From Nitrospira sp. (lineage in GTDB: Bacteria > Nitrospirota > Nitrospiria > Nitrospirales > Nitrospiraceae): DNA of 38,089 nt. Positions 33,469 through 38,089 of this stretch are shown piece after piece (position 1 is the stretch's first letter; every line of letters starts with the position of its first letter). The notes beneath the pieces were generated by a model. The model searched no databases, had not been told where the DNA came from, and was given only the letters and a program-made list of their open reading frames with translations. The translations under genes were made by a program, and so were the position numbers. The stretch lies in assembly GCA_029240595.1 (NCBI GenBank), contig JARDZZ010000005.1, positions 1 to 38,089 of the forward strand, written 5' to 3'.

Positions 33469-34749
33469 TCAGCCGGTGCGGTGAGATCCTCGCGACTCCC
33501 GATGCGCCGGCTCCGGTTGTTCGAAGAGTAATCTCGCGCCCGGCTTGAAGGTGACGTAGTACCAGATCCATTCCGACATCACGCGGAAGCGGCTGCGAAC
33601 GCCGATGAGGAAAAAGATGTGCACAATGCACCAGAGCAGCCAGGCGAGGAGTCCTGAAACATGAAATCGGCCGATTTGTGCCACCGCCTTGGCCCTTCCG
33701 ATGGTCGCCAGCATCCCTCGGTCAGCATAGATAAATGGCGGGCGACTGCTAGGAGCCACACCCTCCTCGATCAACTGGGCGACATAACGGCCCTGCTGCA
33801 TCGCGACGGGAGCCAGCCCTGGCAATGCTTTTCCATCCTGCCCCCGACAATGAGCCGCATCGCCGATGACGAAGATCCACGGATCCCCAGGAACCGTCAG
33901 GTCCGGGTTGACCATCACCCGCCCCGCACCATCGTGGGCCGCCTTCAGCGTATCGAGGAGTCCAGAAGCTCGATTGCCCGCCGCCCAGATGATGCCGGCC
34001 GAAGGGACGAAGTCCTGCCCAATTTTCACACCCCCCTTGTCGACAGCGCTCACGAGACTGTTGAGCCGAATGGTCACTCCCATTCGAGACAAGGCCGCCG
34101 CGGCTTTGTCTGAAAGATCTGGACTGAAACCGGGTAAAATGCGCGGACCGCCCTCGACGAGTAGAACGCAGAGATCATCGAGCCGCAAGTTGGGAAAATC
34201 CGGGCCCATAGCCTTTCGTCCGATCTCTGCCAGCGCGCCCGCCAATTCCACGCCGGTGGGACCGCCGCCGACAATCACAAATGTGAGCGGTTCATGTTTA
34301 CCGGTAGAGGCGAGCCGGCGTTCCGCGTCTTCAAAGGCCGACAGCATGTGTTGGCGTAGCCGTACGGCATCGGTCATGGTCTTCAACCCTGGCGCAAATT
34401 CTTCCCATTCGTCGTGGCCAAAATAGGCATGACGCGAACCAGGCGCAACGATGAGGACGTCGAACGAGACGGGCGGGCTCTCACGCAAGCAGATCGAGCG
34501 ATCAGCGCGATCGATCGACAGCACTTCATCCATCATGACGCGGACGTTGCGTTGCGAGCGAAAAACGGTGCGCAATGGCCATGCAATATCACTCGGCGAC
34601 AAGGCAGCGGTCGCCACCTGATAGAGCAGCGGTTGGAACAGGTGATGATTCGTGCGGTCGATGAGCACGACGTCGGCCCGACGGAGTGATCGGGCGGCTG
34701 TGAGTCCGCCAAAGCCGCCTCCGATGATGACGATCCTCTTCTGATCCAT
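33469..34749 (-). CDS. ndh: Type II NADH dehydrogenase (NDH-2 family)
   Basis: The 426-residue flavoprotein has two dinucleotide folds: FAD-binding VIIGGGFGGLTAARSLRR at the N-terminus and NAD-binding VIVGGGPTGVELAGAL near residue 165, then VFVIGDAAHCRGQDGKALPG-type FAD contact (IFVIGDAAHC) near 295 and AVAMQQG-like APVAMQQGRYVAQLI. The C-terminus contains hydrophobic WLLWCIVHIFFLIGVRSRF, which would attach it to the membrane. It passes electrons from NADH to quinone without pumping ions. Its ATG lies 26 bp from the stop of the intradiol dioxygenase gene. Confidence 0.9.
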   Translation of the reverse strand: MDQKRIVIIGGGFGGLTAARSLRRADVVLIDRTNHHLFQPLLYQVATAALSPSDIAWPLRTVFRSQRNVRVMMDEVLSIDRADRSICLRESPPVSFDVLIVAPGSRHAYFGHDEWEEFAPGLKTMTDAVRLRQHMLSAFEDAERRLASTGKHEPLTFVIVGGGPTGVELAGALAEIGRKAMGPDFPNLRLDDLCVLLVEGGPRILPGFSPDLSDKAAAALSRMGVTIRLNSLVSAVDKGGVKIGQDFVPSAGIIWAAGNRASGLLDTLKAAHDGAGRVMVNPDLTVPGDPWIFVIGDAAHCRGQDGKALPGLAPVAMQQGRYVAQLIEEGVAPSSRPPFIYADRGMLATIGRAKAVAQIGRFHVSGLLAWLLWCIVHIFFLIGVRSRFRVMSEWIWYYVTFKPGARLLFEQPEPAHRESRGSHRTG

Positions 34750-34775: not shown

Positions 34776-35507
34776 TCAGGACGAGGGAAGCTGCAGGCCC
34801 AGGGAAAAGGTCGCACTGAAGCCCTCGGCCGCGGGCATAGGACTGAGCAGGAGCTGTTCTCCTCCGCGACGGAAAATGCGATCATCTTGGTTTCGACCGG
34901 CGCGAGATCCTTTCTCGGCATACGGCGGATCTGCAAAGACACGATCCGAGAGCGCGTCGTCAAAGTACATCTGAGTCGTGAGTTCGAAGCGCTGCTTCGT
35001 CTCTGGCGCCGTACGGACTTTGAGATGGATGTGCACAGTGCGGCCAGGATACCAGCCCGGATAAATGGTGAGAAACCGTGCTTCTCCTTGCGGATCCGAA
35101 ATCTGGTACCCGCGCAGAAACTTTTGTCCGATCGTAGAGAAGCCGGGATCCTGCACGTCTGAGTAGACACCCCGCGCATCGCAATGCCAGATATCGACCT
35201 GAGCACCGGGCAGTGGGTGGCATTGCCCCATCTCAACGCGGGAGAGCCTAACCGTTAATCCTAACGGGGTTCCGGATTTGACCTGGCCAGTCGTCGGATC
35301 AGAACGGATATCGGAGCGGTTTAAGCGCTCATCGACGAAATAGGGGCCTTCGGTCTGCTCCGGGCGAAACATGCAAGCAGGACTTGGTCCGCCGATCGCA
35401 CTGAGAGATACGGGGCTTCCGGCGATGACACAAGCCACACAACCACCCAACAACCGCAATGCATCACGGCGCGACAGGAGGCAGGCCATGGTCAGGTCAT
35501 CGGACAT
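34776..35507 (-). CDS. Intradiol ring-cleavage dioxygenase-like protein with twin-arginine leader
   Basis: The 243-residue protein begins with SRRDALRLLGGCVACVIAG, a twin-arginine-like or Sec export signal. The rest matches the catechol/protocatechuate dioxygenase fold: EQTEGPYFVDERLNRSDI, then QVDIWHCDARGVYSDV and IYPGWYPGRTVHIHLKV, which contain the Tyr, Tyr, His and His ligands of non-haem Fe(III). Members cleave catechols between the hydroxyls. The exported form is less usual than cytoplasmic enzymes; extracytoplasmic relatives exist and their substrates are poorly known. The ATG at 35507 was chosen over an upstream codon at 35573 because it starts just before the leader. Confidence 0.87.
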   Translation of the reverse strand: MSDDLTMACLLSRRDALRLLGGCVACVIAGSPVSLSAIGGPSPACMFRPEQTEGPYFVDERLNRSDIRSDPTTGQVKSGTPLGLTVRLSRVEMGQCHPLPGAQVDIWHCDARGVYSDVQDPGFSTIGQKFLRGYQISDPQGEARFLTIYPGWYPGRTVHIHLKVRTAPETKQRFELTTQMYFDDALSDRVFADPPYAEKGSRAGRNQDDRIFRRGGEQLLLSPMPAAEGFSATFSLGLQLPSS

Positions 35508-35785
35508 GATCCCCTCGACTCGACTCGAGCGATAAGGCCAACACAGGGTGGATGGATGCTGTCGATCCACCACCGAACCAAGTGTGAACAGATTGATGAG
35601 GCGCTTTCAAGGAATAAAGTCTGACTGTCTTGCCCGATCCAATCCGCTGGCGAACGAGGGGTCCGACCGAACTCCAGTTACAAGCAGGAAATTCAACCGC
35701 TTATACCCTGTAACCTTTTCGACGAGCGCCGCGACTAACGAACAGAAGAAAACAAGAGCTGCACCTTGGACCATAGGGCGGTGGT
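35508..35785. other. Divergent regulatory region before the ECF sigma gene
   Basis: No gene is seen in these 278 bp. An imperfect inverted repeat spans 35676-35714 (GTTAC...CAGG against CCTG...TAAC, interrupted by a small bulge). A GGAATAAAGT stretch near 35610 loosely resembles the GGAA part of ECF-type -35 elements, so the sigma factor may control its own operon; this is weak. Confidence 0.3.
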
Positions 35786-36457
35786 ATGATGAGCCACGTT
35801 GCGTTTGCCGTCGACATGCAGGCACTGCCCGGATGGCATCGGTCGATGACCGACGACTCGTTGCCTGTGGTCAAACCTAGACAAGACGAACGCGAGCTTC
35901 TCCGCCGCATCAGGCAAGGCGAGATCGAGCGCTATGCCGATCTGATCGACCTTCACCAACGCCATGTGATTCGTATCGTCGGGCGACGAGTGCCGTCGGA
36001 TCGAGTCGCGGAAATTGTCCATGATGTCTTCGTGAGAGCCTATGTCAATTTGGGTCAGTTTTCTGAATCGGTTCCATTCGATCATTGGTTGACAGGCATC
36101 GCGATCCGAACCTGTTACGACTTTTGGAGAGACCAAGCTCGCCATGCTGTGCCTGTCAGCTCCTTGACAGAAGAGCACCACCGCTGGATCGAGCAGACAC
36201 TTTCCGCACAGTCAGACGCACAGTTTCGGCGTCAGGCTGAAACCCGTGACGCGGCTGAAGTCTTGGAATGGGCGCTCCAGCAGCTCTCTCCGGAAAATCG
36301 TGCCGTCTTGACGCTGGTGCACCTCGACGGTTATTCGGTTCGTGAGGCCGCGCAGCTGCTCGGGTGGACCCTGGTCAACGTGAAAGTGAGAGCACATCGG
36401 GCCCGTCGGGCCCTGCGCAACCTTTTACGACACACCTCACCTAGGAGTGCGTCATGA
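35786..36457 (+). CDS. ECF-type RNA polymerase sigma factor
   Basis: The 223-residue protein (203 if the ATG at 35846 is used) has sigma-2 (YADLIDLHQRHVIRIVGRRV, VAEIVHDVFVRAYVNLGQF and FDHWLTGIAIRTCYDFWRDQ) and sigma-4 (ALQQLSPENRAVLTLVHLDG, YSVREAAQLLGWTLVNVKVR, AHRARRALRNLL) regions, and no sigma-1 or sigma-3. It directs RNA polymerase to a small regulon in response to an envelope signal. The next gene overlaps its stop by four bases and encodes a small membrane protein, the typical place for an anti-sigma factor. Order of the following genes resembles cnrH/cnrY/cnrX. Confidence 0.92.
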   Translation: MMSHVAFAVDMQALPGWHRSMTDDSLPVVKPRQDERELLRRIRQGEIERYADLIDLHQRHVIRIVGRRVPSDRVAEIVHDVFVRAYVNLGQFSESVPFDHWLTGIAIRTCYDFWRDQARHAVPVSSLTEEHHRWIEQTLSAQSDAQFRRQAETRDAAEVLEWALQQLSPENRAVLTLVHLDGYSVREAAQLLGWTLVNVKVRAHRARRALRNLLRHTSPRSAS

Positions 36458-36768
36458 ATCAGCATACTGACATTGACGTTCATAAACTCGAGCGTGCCCT
36501 CGTCGACAGCTATCGCTCACGGTCTGGTGCGTCCTATGAGGTCGACGTCACTCAGCAAGTCATGCGCGATGTCCGTCGACTGGATACTGAACGAGAGGGA
36601 TGGACGCCGCCGGCCATGCTGGATCAGTTGATCTGGCAAACGGCCACGCGTGCCGCGGCGGTCGTGCTGATCGCGGCCATGTTGACCGTCGGCTTGTTTC
36701 GGTTACAGTCGGACGGTCCGGCTCTCGTAGCCGAAGACTTCGAGCCGGCTCCGTTATTCGAAGAGTGA
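36454..36768 (+). CDS. Small single-span membrane protein, candidate anti-sigma factor
   Basis: The 104-residue protein has a soluble N-terminal part (about 1-62, LERALVDSYRSRSGASYEVD, VTQQVMRDVRRLDTE), one membrane helix (about 66-87, AAAVVLIAAMLTVGLFRL) and a short acidic tail. Its start overlaps the sigma stop (ATGA). Size, topology and position resemble CnrY, the approximately 95-residue membrane anti-sigma of Cupriavidus, and differ from zinc-binding anti-sigmas because it has no His-x3-Cys-x2-Cys motif. The sigma-binding role is inferred from position. Confidence 0.7.
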   Translation: MNQHTDIDVHKLERALVDSYRSRSGASYEVDVTQQVMRDVRRLDTEREGWTPPAMLDQLIWQTATRAAAVVLIAAMLTVGLFRLQSDGPALVAEDFEPAPLFEE

Positions 36769-36783
36769 TAGCGAGGAGGATCC

Positions 36784-37206
36784 ATGAGATCTCGACGCAA
36801 ATTATGGGCGGGCCTCATCATCCTGTTCGGCGCCGGAACGCTGACCGGGATTGTCGCGGGTTATGTGTATAGCCATACCGAACGGACTACCCGAAGCGAG
36901 CACGGACCTGCCGCTCATCACGAACGGATCATGAAACGCCTTACACAGGACCTGTCGCTGACCGAACAGCAACAGGCCGAGATCGAGCCAATCGTCACCC
37001 GGGCCCACGTGGCGGTTCTCGAGTTACGGTTTGCCCATCAAGCTGAAGTCGAACAGATCTTGGCCAAGGGAATGACGGAGATTAAGACGAAGCTGTCTGC
37101 GTCGCAGCAGCCAGGGTTGGACAAGCTGTATCAGGAATTGGAGCAGCGGTGGCAGGCCTCACGCCACTATCTGGCAACCCAGAAACAGACGCTGACATCG
37201 CAATAA
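36784..37206 (+). CDS. Periplasmic Spy/CpxP/CnrX-like sensor protein
   Basis: The 140-residue protein has a membrane-anchoring or signal segment (residues 7-29, LWAGLIILFGAGTLTGIVAG) and a helical periplasmic part with a Spy/CpxP-type LTxxQ motif (LSLTEQQQAEIEPIV) and a long hairpin to residue 135. It contains His31, His40, His45, His46, His75, His85 and His128, candidates for metal ligands; CnrX uses His pairs of this kind. It follows the small membrane protein by 15 bp and precedes the RND adaptor by 23 bp, so it is well placed to sense metal or envelope stress for the sigma module. A chaperone function like Spy is the alternative. Confidence 0.78.
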   Translation: MRSRRKLWAGLIILFGAGTLTGIVAGYVYSHTERTTRSEHGPAAHHERIMKRLTQDLSLTEQQQAEIEPIVTRAHVAVLELRFAHQAEVEQILAKGMTEIKTKLSASQQPGLDKLYQELEQRWQASRHYLATQKQTLTSQ

Positions 37207-37229
37207 TCTGAGGGAACTGGAAACAGACC

Positions 37230-38089
37230 ATGGCTGAATCGATGCACTTTGCGACCACCGTTAAGCGATGGGTGTTCGGGCTGGCCGCCGCCTGTTTGCT
37301 CGCCTTGGGGGGGTACGCACTGTTAGCTAAATCGGGCGAAGAACCATCCCGTGCCGGACAGATGCCCGGCCCCGCGCGCGCGATGCCGGTGCAGGTAGCC
37401 GCGGCACGCATCGGCGATATCGGCATTTATCTCAACGGGCTCGGCTCGGTCGCACCCTTGAACACCGTTAATGTGAAAAGCCGGGTGGATGGTCAGTTGA
37501 TGAAAGTGCTGTTTCAGGAAGGCCAACTCGTCAAAAGCGGCGACCTCTTGGCGCAGATTGATCCGCGGCCCTTCGAGGTGCAGTTAATCCAGGCCGAGGG
37601 CCAGATGGTGCGCGACCAGGCGCAGTTAAGAAATGCGCGTCTGGACTACGAACGATATAAGGGACTCTACGAACAGGGCTTTGTTCCGAAGCAACAGTTG
37701 GATACTCAGGAGGCCATCGTCCGTCAGTCGGAAGGCATCGTCAAAGCCGATCAGGGCCAAATCGACAACGCGAAGCTTCAGTTGGCCTATAGCCGCATCA
37801 CCGCTCCCATTAGCGGCCGCGTCGGCTTGCGGCAGGTCGATCCCGGCAATATGGTCCGCGCCAACGACACCAATGGCCTTCTCGTCATTACACAACTCAC
37901 ACCCATTGCGGTCATCTTTACGATTCCTGAGGATAGTCTGCCGGCAGTGCTCGAACGGCTCAACGCCGGTCAGCGTCTGACCGTAGACGCATTCGATCGT
38001 GAGCACAAGAAACAACTGGCCACCGGCACCCTGCTGACGGTCGACAACCAGATTGATCCCAATACAGGAACCGTGCGACTCAAAGCCGT
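37230..38089 (+). CDS. RND efflux periplasmic adaptor, MdtA-like (3' end outside window)
   Basis: About 286 residues are present. The N-terminus has a membrane anchor ([20 protein letters not shown]), then the lipoyl half-motif [20 protein letters not shown], the alpha-hairpin (about residues 105-175, [20 protein letters not shown]) and the second lipoyl half [20 protein letters not shown]. This is the membrane-fusion protein that links an RND pump to an outer-membrane channel. The sequence is closest in style to MdtA of multidrug pumps rather than to CzcB/CnrB of metal pumps, as far as can be judged by eye. The pump gene should lie just past the window edge. Confidence 0.92.

Follow-up and report, generated by a model that had tools for sequence, protein, structure and literature searches.

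Two features of CnrYXH bear on what follows: CnrY wraps its sigma factor with two helices (PMC7406223), and residue Met123 of CnrX is required for signalling (PMC7689651). Comparable arrangements have been described in other bacteria. In Phocaeicola vulgatus, the genes of the cirY/cirZ-spy operon are co-transcribed, the sigma factor activates its own operon, and induction of this Phocaeicola ECF/anti-sigma/spy operon has been reported during colitis (PMC13114119). In Azospirillum brasilense, the rpoE8 operon encodes a sigma factor, a hypothetical protein, and a 'periplasmic heavy metal sensor', and has been found to be upregulated (PMC12826043). Spy and MdtABC together form the core of the enterobacterial BaeSR envelope-stress regulon (PMC13209484, PMC3160322), and BaeSR responds to zinc and copper (PMC3160322).

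The locus described here lies at the end of a 38,089-nucleotide stretch of DNA from Nitrospira sp., which is referred to below as the window. Members of Nitrospira, some of them also comammox organisms, are key oxidisers of nitrite in wastewater and soil. A literature search found no paper on an ECF-controlled efflux system (ECF with RND) in Nitrospira, and searches on MdtABC together with ECF or with Nitrospira returned nothing that describes the present system. A preliminary description, made from the sequence, had likened the locus to a CnrH/CnrY/CnrX module joined to an MdtA-like adaptor. We consider it likely that the locus encodes a self-amplifying, CnrYXH-like trans-envelope switch that is dedicated to an MdtABC-type pump and answers to an envelope or toxicant signal.

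Organisation of the operon and type of the pump

Four open reading frames follow one another on the forward strand, in the order and with the spacing first described. The gene for the ECF sigma factor (35786..36457, +) encodes a product that exceeds the Pfam gathering scores for Sigma70_r2 and Sigma70_r4_2 and is conserved in the module loci. It is overlapped by 4 bases, according to the list of open reading frames, by the gene for a 104-residue single-span protein (36454..36768, +); a gap of 15 bases separates this from the gene for a 140-residue, membrane-anchored periplasmic protein (36784..37206, +), and a further 23 bases precede the 5′ part of mdtA (37230..38089, +), which runs off the contig end. 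These four genes form one tight operon. The sigma open reading frame comprises 223 codons if read from 35786 and 203 if read from 35846, and the latter start is the more likely, to judge from how the upstream sequence is conserved. The heptamer TATGATG at the annotated start (35783-35790) is conserved where the surrounding sequence is not, and may either belong to the start region or be a basal −10 box of the sigma-70 type. Divergent from the operon lie an intradiol-dioxygenase-like gene (34776-35573, −) and an NDH-2-like oxidoreductase gene (33469-34749, −), neither of which accompanies the module in the relatives retrieved.

The window corresponds to contig C222 in an assembly of 264 contigs and 2.76 Mb, and breaks off within the adaptor gene. 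The final 99 bases recur exactly at the end of contig C124 (L003), the sole other match in the genome, and shared contig-end sequence of this sort usually marks a junction in the assembly graph. Merged, the two contigs yield MdtA of 409 residues, MdtB of 1038 (L003:5058-8174, −), and MdtC of 1031 (L003:1966-5061, −), with each start overlapping the preceding stop by 4 bases. An assembly artefact as the source of the gene order was rejected, since this junction is found intact in relatives too.

With the pump completed beyond position 38089, it could be typed. The adaptor exceeds the Pfam gathering scores for HlyD_3 and HlyD_D23, and its MdtA-like character was borne out by the MdtA/MuxA equivalog model (436.9 bits against a cut-off of 391). 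MdtB likewise passes the MdtB/MuxB equivalog model (1590.5 against 1584). For MdtC, the MdtC equivalog is the best model, but the score of 1480 lies below the cut-off of 1774. Against the heavy-metal CusA/CzcA model, both pump proteins fall far below the cut-off (358-363 bits against 701), and the pump is therefore of the HAE/MdtABC type and not of the HME type.

Conservation of the module and its association with the pump

Of 246 genomes of the phylum, 39 contain relatives of the 140-residue protein and 20 contain relatives of the 104-residue protein recognised by sequence. In distant families, a single-span protein of 99-114 residues occupies the position between sigma factor and sensor, also at loci where sequence similarity no longer identifies it. 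The order sigma-small protein-sensor-mdtA-mdtB-mdtC is complete in 13 further loci and, of seven module loci retrieved afterwards, in five (a count that allows single genes without sequence recognition in L155 and L156); it is present in about 19 Nitrospira-family genomes. A genome scan with a closer sensor set returned 18 loci, whose named relatives are nearly all Nitrospira or Nitrospirae.

Among 78 genomes of the family, an orthologue of MdtB was found in 28, the sigma factor in 27, and both in 18 (Fisher p = 6e-5, with kinship ignored). In all 18 genomes with both, the sigma gene lies 2-3 kb upstream of the MdtB orthologue on the same strand. Because the order recurs in other genomes and co-location is complete, the arrangement is not a product of chance.

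Departures from this layout were also seen. In L066 (G200:C1), an MdtABC operon lacks the sigma and anti-sigma genes, and its sensor gene has no 5′ end and lies beside a transposase-like open reading frame. In another family of the class, L089:5223-11146 encodes, in the same order, an ECF sigma factor, an anti-sigma factor with a zinc motif of the HxxxCxxC type, and an LTXXQ-like anchored protein, followed by a different RND adaptor and pump; this is the same logic built of different parts.

A conserved promoter upstream of the module

Alignment of the upstream regions revealed the motif TGTAACC-N16-CG[AT]CT, which places a predicted ECF-type promoter, TGTAACC-N16-CGACT with GTAACC as −35 and CGACT as −10 element, at 35709..35736 (+) in the window on the strength of its conserved sequence and spacing at module loci. 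A search for GTAACC-N16-CG[AT]C with exact spacing found this promoter in 28 of 32 testable modules, either before the sigma gene or before an extra gene preceding it, and the flanking T on both sides, which lies outside the searched pattern, is present at all 28 sites. No promoter was recognisable with this pattern at L058; L083 and L084 carry GTAACT variants; the promoter region of L069 is cut by the contig end; and L089, which has a different anti-sigma factor, stands outside the 28. The promoter is also present in each of the seven module loci fetched later, and in none of seven orthologous MdtABC loci that lack the module.

A longer form, TGTAACCT-N15-CG[AT]CT, has a single site in the window's genome, that at 35709-35736, and therefore the circuit looks autoregulated and local. 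Across 17 genomes this form occurs once in most, with 26 matches in total against 10 for the reversed control. The promoter is probably recognised by the operon's own sigma factor, which most likely governs this operon and hardly anything more. At L062, L063, and L065, where no MdtABC genes adjoin the module, a second copy of the motif (GTAACC-N16-CGTC, with GTAACT in one) lies upstream of the sigma gene, faces the opposite way, and points to an open reading frame resembling a response-regulator receiver domain.

The sigma factor and its putative anti-sigma factor

In a comparison with PDB entries, the sigma factor is nearer to RpoE, SigW, and SigH than to CnrH. The 104-residue protein has no Pfam match above the gathering score, and its structural model, of modest confidence (mean pLDDT 70.5), contains helices at residues 3-23, 29-47, and 54-85. 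These are predicted to form two cytosolic helices and one transmembrane helix, followed by a disordered acidic periplasmic tail of only about 20 residues. The absence of the zinc motif of common anti-sigma factors, HxxxCxxC, is confirmed: the window's protein has no cysteine, and none of 24 family members contains CxxC. The window's protein matches neither of the CnrY models (NF033790 and PF17524), and one relative (L072) matches NF033790 below the cut-off. In addition, 9 of 24 family members weakly resemble a general anti-sigma model, with scores under its threshold, and a PDB profile search with the family reached CnrY at E = 1.7 only. By its build, its slot in the operon, and these sub-threshold matches, the protein is a probable class II (CnrY-type) anti-sigma factor, and its build fits that of a protein that would bind the sigma factor in the manner of CnrY.

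The periplasmic protein and the loss of the CnrX metal site

The 140-residue protein has no Pfam match above the gathering score (for PF07813, LTXXQ, 15.1 bits against 24.3), and it is modelled as an anchor helix with four further helices. In a family of 28 members searched at E 0.01, the Metal_resist (CnrX) model is matched by 11 and the LTXXQ (Spy) model by 10, and the family is thus split between the two and does not group firmly with Spy/CpxP. Comparison of the 28 relatives with nine relatives of CnrX by hhalign gave a probability of 92-95% over the whole length, and reversed, column-shuffled, and unrelated controls gave at most 1.6%. Once the membrane anchor was removed from the comparison, the probability fell to 36%. 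The link between the sensor family and the Spy-like family is of equal strength (36%), and therefore the periplasmic domain (residues 38-140) stands at much the same distance from each. Against single sequences from E. coli, hhalign returned 44% for Spy, 2% for CpxP, and 1% for ZraP, which gives no firm placement. A fold search with the model, by a method that handles short helical bundles poorly, returned generic helical bundles only, with no CnrX, Spy, or CpxP among them. Taken together, the family appears to be a distant relative of CnrX, with the homology resting partly on the anchor.

The metal ligands known from the CnrX structure, H42, H46, E63, H119, and M123, are invariant in all nine CnrX relatives, modules associated with copper genes included. 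In the 28-member family, none of the five is retained at the aligned columns, and no histidine, methionine, or cysteine at all is invariant. The label 'His-rich' was a generous one: the window's protein has seven histidines in 140 residues, and not one of them is invariant among the relatives. We accordingly rejected metal control by way of the CnrX ligands, and metal sensing by the CnrX site in this family appears very unlikely, because none of its ligands is kept. The most conserved candidate ligand is H75, found in 23 of 28 members, and another metal site is therefore possible; M50 is found in 20. The likeness to CnrX extends to an apparent distant homology but not to the metal ligands, and the protein is, by its build and position, a probable sensor. 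Among sphingomonad plasmids, the CnrYXH-like modules L092-L098 lie beside copC, copD, and multicopper oxidase genes and keep all five CnrX ligands.

A leading Spy-like gene and exchange of regulators

In many relatives (L054-L060, L073, L074, L153-L155, L158, and L159), the operon begins, after the promoter, with a gene for a secreted protein of some 180-220 residues; the products tested exceed the LTXXQ gathering score and lie below the cut-offs of the NCBIfam Spy and CpxP models. The window's operon has no such gene at this place, and the closest homologue in its genome sits on another contig.

At the orthologous MdtABC locus of L146 and L149-L152, the sigma module is replaced by a LysR gene, whose product scores above the cut-off of the CynR model, while L147 and L148 carry neither LysR nor the sigma module. 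On a tree of MdtA, the LysR label requires at least three changes, and the pump has therefore been rewired several times. A conserved gene for a secreted protein lies near the pump in both the sigma and the LysR arrangement.

A proposed circuit and its alternatives

At rest, the 104-residue protein would hold the ECF sigma factor at the membrane via its two cytosolic helices, assisted by the anchored 140-residue protein, which is expected to contact the short acidic periplasmic tail of the anti-sigma factor. A periplasmic signal would alter the sensor and cause the anti-sigma factor to release the sigma factor, which would then fire its own promoter to give more sigma factor, anti-sigma factor, sensor, and pump. 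Renewed inhibitor and efflux of the toxin would close the loop. The preliminary description had proposed a metal- or stress-sensing module for an MdtABC-like pump; the pump is as proposed, but the loss of the CnrX ligands leaves metal sensing unsupported. The most likely signal is stress to the envelope or an amphiphilic toxicant, and not a transition metal. The main argument for this is that many relatives pair a Spy-like gene with MdtABC, the pairing that forms the core of the BaeSR regulon and is under BaeSR control in E. coli.

The 140-residue protein might instead be solely an anchored response chaperone of the Spy/CpxP type, with the anti-sigma factor alone receiving the signal, for example through regulated proteolysis. 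The LTXXQ-type similarity of some family members and the additional Spy-like protein that relatives encode in this operon speak for it, but the short periplasmic tail of the anti-sigma factor offers little to a signal or a protease, and the sensor gene directly adjoins that of the anti-sigma factor in every case, even where no pump is present; we hold a purely chaperone role to be somewhat unlikely. It is also unlikely that the locus is a true metal-sensing module of the CnrYXH type with a relocated metal site (M50, H75, H85, M97, or the window's H45/H46), inducing MdtABC against metal-caused envelope stress. The homology to CnrX, the Metal_resist matches, the conservation of H75 and M50, the response of BaeSR itself to zinc and copper (PMC3160322), and the copper genes adjoining sphingomonad CnrYXH-like modules are all compatible with such a site, yet the complete loss of the CnrX ligands, the lack of any invariant histidine, methionine, or cysteine, and a pump that is not of the heavy-metal type argue against it.

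That sigma module and pump adjoin each other by mere coincidence, with the sigma factor controlling something else, is highly improbable. Modules without the pump (L061-L063, L065, L073-L077, and L153) and pumps without the module (L146-L152) do both exist, but the six genes are joined by gaps of 15-23 bases or overlaps of 4 bases behind one promoter, and all 18 family genomes with both parts have them together. The dedicated, self-amplifying switch is thus preferred. A more far-reaching proposal, which we advance tentatively and with some doubt, is that a CnrX-type fold relieved of metal sensing acts as the receptor that directly perceives damage to the envelope or amphiphilic toxicants and frees a dedicated ECF sigma factor that runs a Spy and MdtABC programme; this would give Nitrospira its own, independently wired equivalent of BaeSR, interchangeable with a LysR regulator at the pump locus.

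Comparison with known systems

What is new here is the combination of parts and the apparent loss of metal sensing, since each half has precedents: CnrYXH, cirYZ-spy (PMC13114119), and the gene order of Azospirillum rpoE8 (PMC12826043). The locus sets the circuit design of CnrYXH apart from metal sensing and provides a precise, testable promoter. It also presents one multidrug-type pump under interchangeable regulators (an ECF module, LysR, or neither), which is useful for asking which signal MdtABC-type pumps really answer to.

The E. coli arrangement BaeSR-mdtABCD-spy resembles the present one in placing a Spy-type chaperone and MdtABC under single envelope-stress control; however, a two-component system exerts that control where an ECF sigma module does so here, the regulators share no sequence relation, and spy and mdt are separate loci in E. 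coli. Two further operons are likened by description and not by sequence. The Phocaeicola cirY/cirZ-spy operon shares the ECF sigma factor, anti-sigma factor, and Spy-like protein, but belongs to the Bacteroidota and is followed by genes for a hydrolase and a LysM protein rather than by an efflux pump. The Azospirillum rpoE8 operon shares the order of sigma factor, small protein, and sensor, whereas no pump has been reported with it.

Closest in logic is the nickel/cobalt system CnrYXH of Cupriavidus metallidurans pMOL28, and the original likening to CnrH/CnrY/CnrX was apt as regards build and position. Both systems combine an ECF sigma factor, a small single-span anti-sigma factor without a zinc motif (a probable one here), and an anchored helical periplasmic sensor (here a probable one, with an apparent distant homology to CnrX) in a tight operon that continues into an RND pump. 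They differ in that the sigma gene comes first here, whereas the order is Y-X-H in pMOL28 and in the sphingomonad modules; the CnrX metal ligands are absent from the Nitrospira sensor; the Nitrospira sigma factor is not specifically CnrH-like; the pump is of the MdtABC type, in contrast to the HME-type CnrCBA; and a Spy-like gene leads the operon in relatives of the Nitrospira module. Judged by its ligands, the CnrY model, gene order, and pump, the Nitrospira module thus appears to be CnrYXH-like in logic and to stand outside that family.
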